Source of the DNA: a virus
Virus record (IMG/VR): IMGVR_UViG_3300008221_000014
Location: 1 to 37,246 of that record
Reading direction: 5' to 3' (one strand)
DNA: 37,246 bases
The translations under genes and the position numbers were made by a program. Positions 4,626-14,508 of this stretch are shown here, piece after piece (the stretch's first letter is position 1; each line of letters starts with the position of its first letter). The notes beneath the pieces are model-generated. The model saw nothing but the letters and a program-made list of their open reading frames with translations. It made no database searches and was not told the DNA's origin.

Positions 4626-4973
4626 ATGTCAGATTCAGAGAGCAGGTACACCAGGGAACAACGAGTACGCAAGAGTGCAGTCAAGCCCTACAACAAGATC
4701 GAGTGGGAATCTGCCGGATGTTTAGGTATCGGGGAGACCGTGTTCTTCCTGGGACCAGGAGAATCCAAGACGTACAACCCAATGCTACGCAAGATCTGTG
4801 GGGAATGCCCGATCCTGGAGGACTGCCGCAACTGGGCACTAGCCCACGAGAAGTACGGCTTCCAGGGTGGCATGTCAGGGTACGAGCGCAAGGCTTATCG
4901 CATGGAACATGGTATCGAGTACGAAGATCCAAGTCTCGTTGCTTGGGCTGAGAATCTAGGACTAGGCTACTAA
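4626..4973 (+). CDS. whiB-like: WhiB-like transcription regulator
   Basis: 115 residues. Four cysteines are placed as in WhiB proteins: Cys32, then Cys58-x2-Cys61-x5-Cys67, which bind a [4Fe-4S] cluster. Downstream is Gly-Phe-Gln-Gly-Gly-Met-Ser, corresponding to the Gly-(Ile/Val)-Trp-Gly-Gly turn that contacts the primary sigma factor; here Trp is replaced by Gln. WhiB proteins are restricted to actinobacteria and their phages and act by binding region 4 of the host principal sigma factor. In mycobacteriophage TM4 such a protein represses host whiB2. It probably redirects host transcription early. The C-terminus has few basic residues, so DNA binding may be weak. Confidence 0.85.
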   Translation: MSDSESRYTREQRVRKSAVKPYNKIEWESAGCLGIGETVFFLGPGESKTYNPMLRKICGECPILEDCRNWALAHEKYGFQGGMSGYERKAYRMEHGIEYEDPSLVAWAENLGLGY

Positions 4974-8485: not shown

Positions 8486-8661
8486 AGTGGATCGTGTCCT
8501 CGTACGGTGTTGCGGTACTCTTTCATTGCCTCGAGTGTGCGGACACTACGTCGTGTCACGTACTCGTTGAAGTTTCTTATCGCGTAAGGTACGAGCACTC
8601 CGACACCAACCACACTAAGTGCTACTGCCAGGAATATCATACCGCCATACTCTTCACTCAT
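8482..8661 (-). CDS. 59-residue membrane microprotein
   Basis: ATG at 8661 overlaps the primase stop (TGATG) and its own stop overlaps the next start (ATGA). Residues 9-28 are hydrophobic (Ile-Phe-Leu-Ala-Val-Ala-Leu-Ser-Val-Val...), forming one membrane helix; the C-terminal half is basic and probably cytoplasmic. A longer in-frame reading upstream would run into the primase gene and was not used. Unrecognised. Confidence 0.6.
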   Translation of the reverse strand: MSEEYGGMIFLAVALSVVGVGVLVPYAIRNFNEYVTRRSVRTLEAMKEYRNTVRGHDPL

Positions 8662-9281
8662 CACAGCCCCAATCTCTTCTTGATTCCATCGGATCCTTCT
8701 TCCATGTACACGTCCGTTAGGTCCATACCATCGGGCATAGATACAACAACGGCCACGTCCAGAGCAGTAGCGATCTTCTTTCCGAGATCCCATCCTGCTT
8801 GATCTCCGTCGGTCAAGACGAACACCTTGTGATAGTCAGTGAATGCCCTGCGGTAGAACGGCTTCCATGCATTAGCACCAGCCAATCCTACTGTCGGGAT
8901 TCCACACACCGAGTTGGCGATTACGGTATCGAACTCACCCTCGGATATAGCAATGAAGTCTGAGTCGGTCTGGAATGCACCGACGTTGTACAGATGGGAG
9001 TCAGCACCATCGCGTGAAAGATACTTAGGTTCAGATGAGTCGACTAACGTGCGGAACCTGATCTCATTGACACAGGTGGGGGTGATGTAAGGGATAGAGA
9101 TCCTACCCCGGTACCGCTCGTGACCAATACGAGGGACACCAACGTAACCTATCTTATGTGCAGTGGCAGCTTCCCTAGTAATACCTCGAGCCATTAGGTA
9201 CTGTGCTAACTCGGGTGTCATCTGCGAAGCGTAATCATCGGCAGATAACCCTAGTTCGATCTTTGCATCAAGACTAATCAT
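8661..9281 (-). CDS. DNA primase, toprim subunit
   Basis: 206 residues. The toprim fold is shown by Ser-Glu114-Gly-Glu116-Phe-Asp and Thr-Asp158-Gly-Asp160-Gln-Ala-Gly, the acidic residues that bind magnesium in DnaG-type primases. A Tyr-Arg-Gly-Arg-Ile-Ser-Ile-Pro-Tyr motif upstream is typical of the N-terminal part of the primase catalytic core. The zinc-binding part is on the separate upstream gene, coupled by ATGA. Together they would make RNA primers for phage DNA replication. There is no helicase domain in this chain. Two-gene primases occur in actinophages. Confidence 0.85.
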   Translation of the reverse strand: MISLDAKIELGLSADDYASQMTPELAQYLMARGITREAATAHKIGYVGVPRIGHERYRGRISIPYITPTCVNEIRFRTLVDSSEPKYLSRDGADSHLYNVGAFQTDSDFIAISEGEFDTVIANSVCGIPTVGLAGANAWKPFYRRAFTDYHKVFVLTDGDQAGWDLGKKIATALDVAVVVSMPDGMDLTDVYMEEGSDGIKKRLGL

Positions 9282-9673
9282 CTCTTGCTCCTCCGTTCGC
9301 GAGGCTCTTGTCCTCGTTGGCTAGGCGGTACGTATCCACGCTTGCTCTTGCTCGAAGTCTTGCGACCTCCACGCTTCATGGCTTGCCCACTGTCAGCAGC
9401 ACCAGTGATCTGTTCACACTTAGCGACAGCGTCCTTGTACTCTAGTCCTTCGTAGTGTTGGACAACACCGATGGCGTCGTTCTTGAAGCCACACCCCTGG
9501 CAGAACACCTGACCTATGTCACTGGAGATCCTGCATGAAGCATGGCTGTCAGCATGCGCACCACACTTGATGGTCTGCCATACGCCACGAGGTGAGGGGA
9601 GGTCCCACTCGAAGTACTCGAGTACAGGCCAGATGTCGAACCTGAAGTCCGAGTCGGAACTCCCCCTACTCAT
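9278..9673 (-). CDS. DNA primase, zinc-binding subunit
   Basis: 131 residues. Cys37-x2-His40 and Cys58-x2-Cys61 form a CHC2-type zinc ribbon, preceded by a Trp-Gln-Thr-Ile-Lys-Cys strand as in primase N-termini and followed by helices. This domain recognises the template start site. The C-terminal 35 residues are basic (Arg, Lys, Ser, Gly) and probably bind nucleic acid. ATG at 9673, separated by one base from the preceding stop; its own stop overlaps the toprim gene by ATGA. Confidence 0.8.
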   Translation of the reverse strand: MSRGSSDSDFRFDIWPVLEYFEWDLPSPRGVWQTIKCGAHADSHASCRISSDIGQVFCQGCGFKNDAIGVVQHYEGLEYKDAVAKCEQITGAADSGQAMKRGGRKTSSKSKRGYVPPSQRGQEPRERRSKR

Positions 9674-10321: not shown

Positions 10322-10660
10322 CTATAGGACCTCAGGCTTACGGTTGACCTCTAGTCTTTCGCGCTCATCAAGCACGTTAACTACGTCCGGGTTGCCGGTC
10401 AGTACCATGTCGTGCTCATTGTAATGGTGTGAGCAGAACAGTAGCGTCGTGCTGTTACTGAAGGTAACCTCGATCCATGCCTGGACACCGCAACGATCGC
10501 AACGATCAAGAGCGTTGAGTTTGTATGGCTCCTTCTCTGTGGCTACAAGTAGACCGGAACCTGACTCGGAAAACTTGACCACTACGTTACTGGTCTCGGT
10601 ATCATCTTCCATCCAGTCATCAAAATCCTCTGCGTACTCTTCATACTCATCCTCGTTCAT
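10322..10660 (-). CDS. DUF7455-like CxxC/CxHH protein
   Basis: 112 residues. An acidic N-terminal half (Asp/Glu/Tyr) is followed by Leu-x-Arg-Cys-Asp-Arg-Cys-Gly-x-Gln-Ala and Leu-Phe-Cys-Ser-His-His-Tyr, then a helix with Asp-Glu-Arg-x-Arg-Leu. The C-terminal half matches a small metal-binding domain that is widespread in actinobacteria (DUF7455) and is supporting evidence for the host. Its role is unknown. The start overlaps the resolvase stop (ATGA). The acidic N-terminal addition is unlike the short host proteins I know of. Confidence 0.7.
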   Translation of the reverse strand: MNEDEYEEYAEDFDDWMEDDTETSNVVVKFSESGSGLLVATEKEPYKLNALDRCDRCGVQAWIEVTFSNSTTLLFCSHHYNEHDMVLTGNPDVVNVLDERERLEVNRKPEVL

Positions 10661-11022
10661 GCGATCCCCTCTCCATGCAGTAGGTCCTTGAATGTTTCCA
10701 GAGTCATTGTAACACGACCGGTACTGGTTCCCTTACCCCGCCCCTTAACCATGACAACACCATAAGTAGTGCCGCCGTACTTCTCCTCATAGTTGTCAGC
10801 CTCAACCTCAGCCTGACGAAGGAAGTCTAGCATGTTCTCACGAGCAACGTTCTTCGCTTCAACCACAACAACAGCTCTGGACTTCAACGTGATGCTAACG
10901 TCACCGATATCCTTAGCACCTGCGCGTGGTAGACGACGAGCGTGAAGACCGCTGTCGTTACAGTACGACTCGATGTCGGATTCCCATTTGCTTCCCTTGG
11001 CCTTGTTGTAAGCGTTACCCAT
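10657..11022 (-). CDS. Hjc-like PD-(D/E)xK resolvase/endonuclease
   Basis: 121 residues from the ATG at 11022, which overlaps the ATPase stop as TAATG; a longer reading frame upstream was rejected. Motifs: Lys-Gly-x-Lys-Trp-Glu14 in helix 1, Arg-Arg-Leu-Pro-Arg-Ala-Gly, Asp38-Ile-Gly-Asp41, and Glu55-Ala-Lys57. This order is that of archaeal Hjc-type Holliday junction resolvases and related phage nucleases; Glu14, Asp41, Glu55 and Lys57 would bind metal and cut. It probably resolves recombination or replication junctions before packaging. Confidence 0.75.
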   Translation of the reverse strand: MGNAYNKAKGSKWESDIESYCNDSGLHARRLPRAGAKDIGDVSITLKSRAVVVVEAKNVARENMLDFLRQAEVEADNYEEKYGGTTYGVVMVKGRGKGTSTGRVTMTLETFKDLLHGEGIA

Positions 11023-11798
11023 TACATGTCCTCCAACAACATAGATGCACCATCGAACTTCATCCACACAGCGGTGCTGCCGGATGCGTCCGCTTGACCG
11101 TACCTGTTCTTGACGGGAGCAACAGCCATCCATCCTGGAGTATCGGATGCAACGGTTAGTACTAGGCTAGGAACCTGAGCGACCTTACCGTGCAATGCAC
11201 TACGAGGAGGGCACGGGTTGCTGCCGTATGACTCACTGGTGTGGTGAAGGATAAGGAACGTAGCGTTAGTCTCACGTGCCCACGACTTGCACTCTCGCAT
11301 CAACGACCGGAGTGAACCGAACTCGTCACCGTCATCGTGCGTAACATCGGTAGCGTTATCAACCACAATGAGTACAGGGTCGGAACCTTTCATCTCACGG
11401 TAGATCTCTATCTCATCCTCGACATCGTACAGTGACGGGTTGGAGTCGAAGCTCCAGGAGATGTGACCTGCATACTGAGCCAATAGATCCGATGCCCACT
11501 TCTGGTCGAGTGCCATACGTTCTTCGACCTCGCGTTGTGGTAGACCTGTAATCATAGCGAGTGATCTAATAGCCATAGTGGAAGCGTGACTATCCATGCT
11601 GAAGTATAGTGTTGGTTGCTGTGACTTAAGAGCGACAGCAAGAGCGATCGTTGACTTACCTGCACCAGGACTACCCGCAACCATGGAGATCTCTCCACGT
11701 CGGAGGCTTATACCCTTAGCCGTCCACGACTGGAACGGTATGTCTAGTGAAGCACCAGACTTATCTATCGATCGAACTGTACGAGTTAGAGTTTGCAT
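11022..11798 (-). CDS. RecA/DnaB-family ATPase
   Basis: 258 residues. Walker A is Gly42-Ser-Pro-Gly-Ala-Gly-Lys48-Ser-Thr; Walker B is Leu-Ile-Val-Val-Asp147-Asn. A Leu-Ile-Leu-His-His-Thr segment fits the sensor strand after it. Length and layout match the compact RecA-like proteins of actinophages, annotated variously as DnaB-like helicase or recombinase. It lies between a zinc protein and the resolvase, so recombination or replication is the expected role. ATG at 11798 follows AAGGATGGTAG. It lacks an obvious DnaB N-terminal domain. Confidence 0.8.
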   Translation of the reverse strand: MQTLTRTVRSIDKSGASLDIPFQSWTAKGISLRRGEISMVAGSPGAGKSTIALAVALKSQQPTLYFSMDSHASTMAIRSLAMITGLPQREVEERMALDQKWASDLLAQYAGHISWSFDSNPSLYDVEDEIEIYREMKGSDPVLIVVDNATDVTHDDGDEFGSLRSLMRECKSWARETNATFLILHHTSESYGSNPCPPRSALHGKVAQVPSLVLTVASDTPGWMAVAPVKNRYGQADASGSTAVWMKFDGASMLLEDM

Positions 11799-11871: not shown

Positions 11872-12354
11872 TTAACCTGGGAACGAAGCAAACTCAGGTG
11901 ACTTCGAGTCAATGAACTGAGCCTTGCACTGATCAGGTGTACCCTTGGGTGTTGGGCACATGTATGCCTTCCACGGTCCACGAGCACTCACACCACTACG
12001 AGCCGTCATCGGTCCGTGTGCACAGTTCTTCGCCGCTGCTGCTGCGAACGCTGCCGGTGGTGCTGCTACTGGTGCTGCTGCTGGTGCTCCCCAAGTCGAT
12101 GCTGCGATAGGAGCTTCCGCTACTGGAGCCACTCCCGCTGCTGCTGCCGGTTGTACTGGTGCTAGAGCGAACGTGTCAGCGACTGCACTTGATCCACTGA
12201 GTTGCTGTTCGATCTCTGCGATGACCGCAATGCGATCTTGAATGATAGCAAGAGCGTAATCAAACGCTGCTTCATCCTTGCCGTACACGTTAATCAAGGT
12301 ACCTTTAGGTGTCTTGAAGTTTGCTTGAACTACTGTATCTGGTGCTGCACTCAT
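11872..12354 (-). CDS. Zinc-finger protein with Ala/Pro linker
   Basis: 160 residues. The N-terminal 55 residues look like a small alpha/beta domain. Residues 60-108 are a low-complexity Ala/Pro/Val linker. The C-terminal domain has Cys111-x-His113, Cys133 and Cys143 around a Trp-Lys-Ala-Tyr-Met-Cys-Pro...Gly-Thr-Pro-Asp-Gln-Cys motif, a zinc-binding tail found in actinophage proteins next to Cas4/RecB-like nucleases and RecA-like ATPases. A single-strand DNA binding role is plausible from context but not shown. It starts in a TAATG overlap with the nuclease gene. Confidence 0.65.
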   Translation of the reverse strand: MSAAPDTVVQANFKTPKGTLINVYGKDEAAFDYALAIIQDRIAVIAEIEQQLSGSSAVADTFALAPVQPAAAAGVAPVAEAPIAASTWGAPAAAPVAAPPAAFAAAAAKNCAHGPMTARSGVSARGPWKAYMCPTPKGTPDQCKAQFIDSKSPEFASFPG

Positions 12355-13034
12355 TAATTTACCTCCGCTAGTAATAGATCTTCATCGAACTTAGGACGAA
12401 CAATAGCAGGGTTCTGTGTGTAGCAGTGTTGCGACACGCCACAGAATCCACAGTTGAATCCAACCGAAGGTGTAAACACCTCGGACTTTATTAACTTGTA
12501 CGTGTCACGGAACCAACGACTCACCATCTCCGGTGGGTATTGATCCAGGTCGAACGGGTCGCTCATCTGTCCACCTCGAGCATTCCAGTACGCACCATAC
12601 TTGATGTCAACACCGAACTTCTCCTTGATGGCTAAACGATAAACCGCTAGTTGCAGTCCATCCTTGGATGCAGTGGCACCTGTCTTGATGTCAACGATGA
12701 TTAGTTCACCGGTAACTTTGTCACGGAACACCCTATCAACGAAACCTTTCAACGGGGTATCCAGTGGCAACATTACTTCGAGGCCCAGCTCGATGGCTGG
12801 ACGACCGTCAGGGTCAATCCAGATCTCTAGGTTAGGGTTAGCCATGCGCCATTCATAATAGTTCTTGGTGTACTTCTGACCGTTCTTGCGCCAGAACTTG
12901 TCATCCTCTTTGTTGGGGTTAGCCTTAGAGACTCTGCCTCCAGCCTTCCACTCAACGTCCTTGCCTTCTTCCATCTCGTTCTCGAAGTAAGTACTGAACT
13001 CCGCGAGACCTAGGGCTAGAGCCTTTTCACTCAT
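12354..13034 (-). CDS. Cas4/RecB-like nuclease, catalytic C-terminal part
   Basis: 226 residues. It has Gly-Phe-Val-Asp100-Arg-Val, Asp115-Ile-Lys117-Thr-Gly (PD-(D/E)xK motifs II and III), Gln128-x3-Tyr132, and Cys195-x2-Cys198-x5-Cys204. This is the C-terminal two thirds of a Cas4/AddB-type nuclease. The motif I histidine and the first iron-sulfur cysteine are absent from this chain and are found in the separate upstream ORF, joined by ATGA. It would process DNA ends for recombination. Either the enzyme is a two-chain protein, or a frameshift in the read sequence has divided one gene. Confidence 0.8.
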   Translation of the reverse strand: MSEKALALGLAEFSTYFENEMEEGKDVEWKAGGRVSKANPNKEDDKFWRKNGQKYTKNYYEWRMANPNLEIWIDPDGRPAIELGLEVMLPLDTPLKGFVDRVFRDKVTGELIIVDIKTGATASKDGLQLAVYRLAIKEKFGVDIKYGAYWNARGGQMSDPFDLDQYPPEMVSRWFRDTYKLIKSEVFTPSVGFNCGFCGVSQHCYTQNPAIVRPKFDEDLLLAEVN

Positions 13035-13228
13035 TGGGATACCCCTTGCTCTCTAAGTAACTGCCAATCAATCGCTTCTGTAGCCGAGTGAACTGCGGAC
13101 CCACCAGCAAAGTAGTAAGCCTTAGACTCGGATACTTTATCCACGCGCCCCAGCTTGTATTGCTGTGGGCACTTTTGGTATGTAGTCATACCTGAGTAAC
13201 TAATGTATAACGGTATCTGTGTGCTCAA
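13031..13228 (-). CDS. Cas4/RecB-like nuclease, N-terminal part
   Basis: 65 residues from a TTG start at 13228, which overlaps the preceding stop (TTGA) and has AAGGGAG upstream. It contains Ser-Tyr-Ser-x2-Thr-Thr-Tyr-x2-Cys20-Pro-x2-Tyr, the N-terminal signature of RecB/Cas4 nucleases in which this cysteine is the first [4Fe-4S] ligand, and Gly-Gly-Ser-Ala-Val-His47, motif I. The other three cysteines and the catalytic Asp/Lys are on the next ORF. It stops two bases after the next ATG begins. No classical slippery heptamer is seen at the junction. Alone it cannot be a complete nuclease. Confidence 0.75.
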   Translation of the reverse strand: MSTQIPLYISYSGMTTYQKCPQQYKLGRVDKVSESKAYYFAGGSAVHSATEAIDWQLLREQGVSQ

Positions 13229-13344
13229 CGTGTGCTCCCTTCTTGGTTCATGTATTCTTCCAGGCTGTATTCCCAGTACAGTACACCATCGGGGTATGCC
13301 TTGTCAAGCCACGCATCCCTAGACTCTAAACGCTTAACGATCAT
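13225..13344 (-). CDS. 39-residue hypothetical protein
   Basis: ATG at 13344 in an ATGA overlap with the upstream stop, TGA overlapping the TTG of the nuclease N-terminal ORF. It has a basic start and a Trp/Tyr-rich acidic second half (Tyr-Trp-Glu-Tyr). Both ends are coupled to real genes, which is the main support. Unrecognised. Confidence 0.55.
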   Translation of the reverse strand: MIVKRLESRDAWLDKAYPDGVLYWEYSLEEYMNQEGSTR

Positions 13345-13934: not shown

Positions 13935-13948
13935 TTAAGCTTTGTCAA
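13920..13948 (-). promoter_or_regulatory. Candidate promoter for the leftward middle operon
   Basis: Minus-strand TTGACA (plus 13943-13948, in the 3' end of the HNH gene), 17 bp, TAATGT (13920-13925). Perfect -35, poor -10. Placed to transcribe from 13715 through the recombination and replication genes. Confidence 0.45.
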
Positions 13949-14462
13949 CAGCGACACGCCAATTTGCCCAGAGTCTGTCACCCTTTGACTTGTTGCAGGA
14001 GTGACACAACGGAATGAGGTTGTCCAAAGTGTGTCCCCCGCCCTTGGATATAGGGACAAGGTGGTCTGCTTCCGAGGGTGAAGGGGCTGAGCACGCTGTA
14101 CAGGGCATGGAATGTATAGCCATAACATCCTTAGTGGTTACTAAACTAACTTCTCCACCTGCCTTGATTACCTTCCTGCGACCACAGTAGTTAGCCTGAT
14201 AAGCTTTTCTATCGGGAGTGGATTCATACTCAACCCGACGCGCCCTGTTAGTGGGATCGTCTAGCCACTTAGTAGTCCTAATCCTAGACTTCTCAAGGAC
14301 GATCTCCTTCTCCTCGGGAGACAAGTTGGCACTCCTTCTCTTTTGGTAAAGATTCAAGCAATCTCTGCAACTGTATTTAAGACCGTCAGAAGACTTTCGG
14401 TTTTCTCCAAAAGAGGAAACATCCTTCTCAATCTTGCAAGTTCCGCAAACTTTGGTGTTCAT
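13935..14462 (-). CDS. HNH endonuclease
   Basis: 175 residues from the ATG at 14462, which has GAAAGGA seven bases upstream. N-terminal Cys-x2-Cys and Cys-x2-Cys pairs (residues 6-9 and about 32-35) form a zinc knuckle, and the C-terminal HNH core has Cys-x2-Cys, Glu-Ala-Asp-His-Leu-Val-Pro, Gly-Gly-x-His...Asn-Leu-Ile-Pro-Leu-Cys-x2-Cys-Asn-x2-Lys. Such proteins nick or cut DNA; free-standing copies in phages are often homing endonucleases, while those near the terminase help packaging. This one lies at the operon boundary, flanked by two gene-poor gaps, which suits a mobile gene. Confidence 0.85.
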   Translation of the reverse strand: MNTKVCGTCKIEKDVSSFGENRKSSDGLKYSCRDCLNLYQKRRSANLSPEEKEIVLEKSRIRTTKWLDDPTNRARRVEYESTPDRKAYQANYCGRRKVIKAGGEVSLVTTKDVMAIHSMPCTACSAPSPSEADHLVPISKGGGHTLDNLIPLCHSCNKSKGDRLWANWRVAVDKA

Positions 14463-14508
14463 TGGCAATCCTTTCATTCATCGGCATTAATCGTTCAGCA
14501 CTACACGA

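Follow-up and report, generated by a model that had tools for sequence, protein, structure and literature searches.

The nuclease locus and its neighbours

The window, meaning the whole stretch of DNA analysed, is an IMG/VR virus record of 37,246 bases with a GC content of 52%. Its minus strand carries two ORFs in different reading frames, chain N (ORF1; 13228..13031), a 65-aa product with a TTG start that corresponds to the N-terminal part of an exonuclease, and chain C (ORF2; 13034..12354), a 226-aa product corresponding to the C-terminal part. The two are joined by an ATGA stop-start overlap at 13031..13034 (minus strand). Chain N is preceded by a Shine-Dalgarno (SD)-like site, AGGGAG (13235..13240, minus strand), and a second SD-like sequence, AAGGGG (13042..13047, minus strand), lies 7 nt ahead of the chain C start. 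The frame of chain C opens just 22 nt ahead of the end of ORF1, with its ATG placed right at the stop.

Both ORFs matched the same families, with scores above the gathering score of 22 for PF12705. Over the 247 positions of that profile, ORF1 covers 2-49 (23.9 bits) and ORF2 83-246 (46.2 bits); in phrog_1870, an exonuclease family of 313 positions, ORF1 covers 11-66 and ORF2 75-289 (5e-40). An earlier note on this DNA had proposed a single Cas4/RecB-like nuclease divided over two ATGA-joined ORFs. Independent and consecutive matching of the halves confirmed this proposal, and every residue that the note had named was found where it had been placed. Chain N carries Cys20, the first Fe-S ligand, and His47/Glu51 of RecB motif I. 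Chain C carries Glu82, Asp100, Asp115-x-Lys117, Gln128-x3-Tyr132 and Cys195-x2-Cys198-x5-Cys204. RecB motifs I (His), II (Asp) and III (Asp-x-Lys), along with Gln-x3-Tyr, are present in the window and invariant in split and fused relatives. The set of four cluster cysteines (C...C-x2-C-x5-C) is complete, with Cys20 on chain N and the other three on chain C, and is invariant where read. A single polypeptide is customary, but not formally defining, in PF12705/Cas4-like RecB nucleases, and here there are two ORFs. The CRISPR Cas4 equivalog TIGR00372 scored 33.9 bits against a curated cut-off of 65, and the neighbour genes scanned (phage helicase, primase, HNH) included no cas genes. Collectively, profile matches and predicted active-site residues confirm chain N and chain C as the N- and C-terminal parts of one putative Cas4/RecB-like exonuclease.

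Directly upstream of chain N is an ORF whose translation gives 39 aa (13225..13344, minus strand); its TGA overlaps the TTG of chain N (TTGA), and it had no family match. Downstream of chain C, with an ATG close after the chain C stop, lies a Phage_gp49-like gene (mycobacteriophage L5/D29 gene 49; PF25690, 9e-9; 11872..12354, minus strand), situated between the nuclease and a DnaB/RecA-like helicase ATPase (PF13481/PF03796; 11022..11798, minus strand). The helicase is a conserved neighbour that is 48% identical to its counterpart in Caudovirales sp. ct2KA10, where a 127-aa ORF occupies the position of the Phage_gp49-like gene. Next in the cassette is a possible Holliday-junction-resolvase-like or PDDEXK protein (10657..11133, minus strand), suggested by position, with a weak PF24608 match below cut-off; in Thermobifida phage P318 a gene annotated as holliday junction resolvase adjoins the helicase. 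The DNA primase of the window also looks split, its CHC2 zinc-ribbon and Toprim parts lying on ATGA-linked ORFs at 8661-9281 and 9278-9673 (minus strand). An HNH/endonuclease VII-like gene (13935-14477, minus strand) sits approximately 700 bases upstream of the split nuclease and could bear on how the split arose. A WhiB-like protein (PF02467) encoded at 4626-4973 on the plus strand suggests an actinobacterial host.

Split and fused relatives

Related loci were collected by IMG/VR scans with the split chains and the neighbouring helicase as queries, and were classified by script using separate profiles for the N part and the C part. Among 216 loci with a C part, 139 were split with adjacent halves, 11 were split with a gene between, 62 were fused and 4 had no readable N part, proportions that are not an unbiased census because the queries were split sequences and a neighbour. 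The script thus assigned 150 of 216 loci as split, or 149 once L115 was set aside as a likely frameshift, a member of a fused clade whose two ORFs overlap by 137 nt. The cut falls at the same position across the 149. Dereplication left 80 adjacent loci (79 without L115), 8 with an insert and 41 fused. The four loci lacking chain N comprise L154 and L155, which lie at contig ends, L064, which lies near one, and L089, where a chain N-like sequence is found on the opposite strand at a contig end, away from chain C, possibly as an assembly artefact. The earlier note had favoured a two-gene enzyme over a one-base error and had named relatives as the place to look for the same split. The split is present in approximately 87 dereplicated relatives (8 with a gene inserted at the cut), which supports the two-gene enzyme and contradicts the possibility, also raised there, that relatives are all fused.

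Within the collection of named phages, chain C has its closest relative in the unannotated ct2KA10, which is likewise split (61 aa and 202 aa, with a 17-nt overlap and a relative frame that differs from that of the window). Despite sequence differences at several sites, its two records retain both ORFs and encode identical proteins. Among the named relatives examined, only the ct2KA10 records are split; the actinophages have a single gene. A DNA-level search of named phages gave no match, and GTDB genome contigs, when scanned, yielded no relatives of the lineage of the window itself in cells or prophages.

Separate ORFs of 41-134 aa lie between the chains in eight dereplicated loci (L040, L090, L158, L160, L168, L180, L204 and L229). 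Most overlap their neighbours by a few bases, and they are different, unrelated small ORFs. One is a transglycosylase-like protein (phrog_35836) and a 41-aa ORF shows a zinc-finger-like Cys pattern with weak matches; the remainder had no family match, and comparison with protein families revealed no endonuclease among the inserts. L167 and L168 are closely related in both nuclease genes, but the insert is found in L168 only. By eye, the 39-aa ORF ahead of chain N in the window (..VLYWEYSLEEYM..) is similar to the 50-aa insert of L168 (..FLYWSGTLDIWF..), and the two are possibly the same small gene located on either side of chain N.

Purifying selection on both chains is strong: in split relatives the median dN/dS is 0.038 (chain N) and 0.089 (chain C), computed on related pairs that are mutually non-independent. 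Cys20 and His47 of chain N are invariant in split loci, apart from one gap at Cys20 where the chain N match is incomplete, and position 51 is Glu or Asp. Glu82, Asp100, Asp115, Lys117, Gln128, Tyr132 and Cys195/198/204 of chain C are invariant in the 149 split loci. Split and fused states are clustered on the tree, the split label requiring 7 changes versus a shuffled mean of 31; with loci lacking chain N omitted, the tree requires 5 changes of state. A single split clade was not rejected by the AU test (p = 0.30) on this tree, which has long branches. As the family is otherwise typically single-chain, the fused gene is probably ancestral and its fission derived. Fused genes make up about a third of the dereplicated relatives and are also what the examined named actinophages carry, so function does not depend on the split.

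A probable single enzyme from two chains

We conclude that the window carries a genuine two-chain version, conserved in relatives, of an already known family of nucleases. We assign a probability of approximately 0.88 to the two genes encoding two subunits of one Cas4/RecB-like (PD-(D/E)XK, PF12705) exonuclease of an actinobacteriophage replication/recombination cassette. The best surviving alternative, which we nonetheless consider improbable, is that the split is real but the chains work apart, with chain C alone, for example, acting as a nuclease and chain N having another function. The metal-binding Asp and Lys residues are on chain C, and AF2 predicted its nuclease core well without chain N (pLDDT 82.9). 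Residues 190-214 of that model, the Fe-S loop, fell below 50, and wherever a split locus could be read its chain N had retained the Fe-S Cys and motif I His that fused enzymes have; both findings argue against separate functions. An AF2 model of the fused relative L198 (pLDDT 86.5) had higher confidence over the Fe-S region, at approximately 68-85 per ten-residue block. This contrast, from models whose alignments differ, is merely suggestive of a cluster site that needs chain N. Foldseek matches of the chain C and L198 models (ACE1, MGME1, Cas4, AdnA, AddAB and Dna2) correspond to the RecB-like nuclease fold. The position in L198 that corresponds to the split is in a loop (residues 60-69) linking helix 41-59 to helix 70-88, where the chain could be interrupted with no necessary effect on the core.

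Programmed ribosomal frameshifting that merges the ORFs into one protein is less probable again. It draws on the overlap of ORFs that together cover one domain family, and on offset-1 junctions (-8, -11, -17) that mostly lack an SD-like site. In each of the 139 adjacent pairs, a start codon occurs no more than 20 nt from the stop of chain N, and ATGA/GTGA is the commonest junction (59 of 79 dereplicated adjacent pairs), with an SD-like motif upstream in 56 of those 59 versus 13.7% of random positions; at the SD-like site of chain C, relatives mostly have AAGGAG or GGAG. In other lineages the chains overlap by 1 nt, or by 8, 11, 14 or 17 nt in the other frame; most junctions of the latter kind have no SD-like site. 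Against frameshifting, most lineages, that of the window among them, have a frame offset of 2 but others an offset of 1; no shift direction is common to all, and one single frameshift cannot explain the split. Furthermore, the offset-1 clade has kept its ATG though the N-frame codons that contain it vary (AAT GCA, CAT GCT), and loci with whole genes between the halves could not be read in this way.

A one-base sequencing or assembly error breaking a normal single gene in the window record has slimmer prospects still. Named phages that were read or annotated have one gene, and L115 looks like just such a case. However, the window junction, with its 22-nt opening and ATG at the stop, is unlike the 137-nt overlap of L115, and the same split recurs across numerous assemblies made independently, together with a suitably placed start codon, an SD-like site and a stop-start overlap. 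The junction sequence is identical in five assemblies from five metagenome data sets (L008, L009, L169, L170 and L172), and where a whole gene lies between the halves, neither a base error nor a frameshift can join them. Least probable is a decaying gene with chain C or chain N as a non-functional remnant, for although gene fragments are frequent in phage genomes, catalytic and cluster residues are conserved in all readable split loci and dN/dS is low in both chains. Sequencing error, frameshifting and decay were each tested and each rejected.

For the two-subunit enzyme we propose that the ribosome would end chain N and restart at the overlapping ATG for chain C, helped by the SD-like site inside chain N, and that such coupled translation would hold chain N and chain C near a 1:1 ratio. 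The motif I helix with its His and Glu, and the first of the Fe-S cysteines, would come from chain N; chain C would provide the Asp residues that bind metal, the Lys, Gln-x3-Tyr and the remaining three cysteines. From residue conservation and the structures of Cas4, the two chains would be expected to associate into one fold stapled by the cluster. Judged by family and neighbours, the enzyme may serve in DNA-end resection for phage recombination or replication. Residue conservation and analogy with Cas4 make one [4Fe-4S] cluster common to both chains most likely. We regard as possible, at somewhat under even odds, a more specific arrangement in which the enzyme cannot do without the cluster as a staple between its chains: either chain by itself would lack nuclease activity, and insertion of the cluster would both assemble the enzyme and activate it; selection would then keep the split to control a dangerous DNA-degrading activity, and the junction would be a landing place for small genes.

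Dozens of related uncultured phages encode as two adjoining genes a nuclease that other phages make as one protein. Its coding sequences suggest a nuclease split in nature, with an active site and a metal cluster that each derive from two chains, an arrangement kept over large sequence divergence. With it one can readily test whether two proteins can be held together by a Cas4-type 'iron staple', and as a nuclease that comes in two parts by nature it lends itself to complementation studies. A further caution is that phage enzymes of this type may be taken for broken genes by gene callers and quality filters, or their short half, here 65 residues, overlooked.

Comparison with known systems

Split phage enzymes as such are known, and we did not find a two-gene form of a Cas4/RecB-like nuclease described: no report of one from phage was found in the open-access literature, where absence is weak evidence. 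Cas4 phylogenomics placed mycobacteriophage and Propionibacterium phage members in PF12705, and the word 'split' is absent from the main text of that study (PMC5704561). Known split genes include NrdA-a/NrdA-b of Aeromonas phage Aeh1 and NrdJ-a/b of Thermus phage phiYS40 (PMC3653736). These are, as in the window, phage enzymes encoded in pieces, but they are ribonucleotide reductases, several of them tied to introns, inteins or homing endonucleases, whereas inserts at the nuclease junction had no endonuclease match.

The best PDB matches by fold and sequence were the AdnA nuclease domain and the Argonaute-associated Cas4-like ACE1. The former is fused to a helicase and the latter is a single chain, in contrast to the two chains of the window. 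In the Cas4 proteins SSO0001 and Pcal_0546, one N-terminal and three C-terminal cysteines bind one cluster, termed an 'iron staple' (PMC4176176). The window pair resembles them in its 1 + 3 cysteines, RecB motifs I-III and QhxxY (PMC4176176) and differs in that each Cas4 is a single chain; given the invariant cysteines and the Cas4 structures, an iron staple here would have to bridge two chains. Closest are the Cas4-family exonucleases of actinophages (PF12705, phrog_1870), such as those of cluster A mycobacteriophages (e.g. Pari), Cutibacterium phages (e.g. FD2) and Thermobifida phage P318, which are homologous throughout and share the same motifs. Several of these phages carry a DnaB-like helicase in the same cassette, as does the window. 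Those examined, however, encode the exonuclease as one gene and one chain, whereas in the window it is divided into two genes by a cut that separates motif I from the rest.
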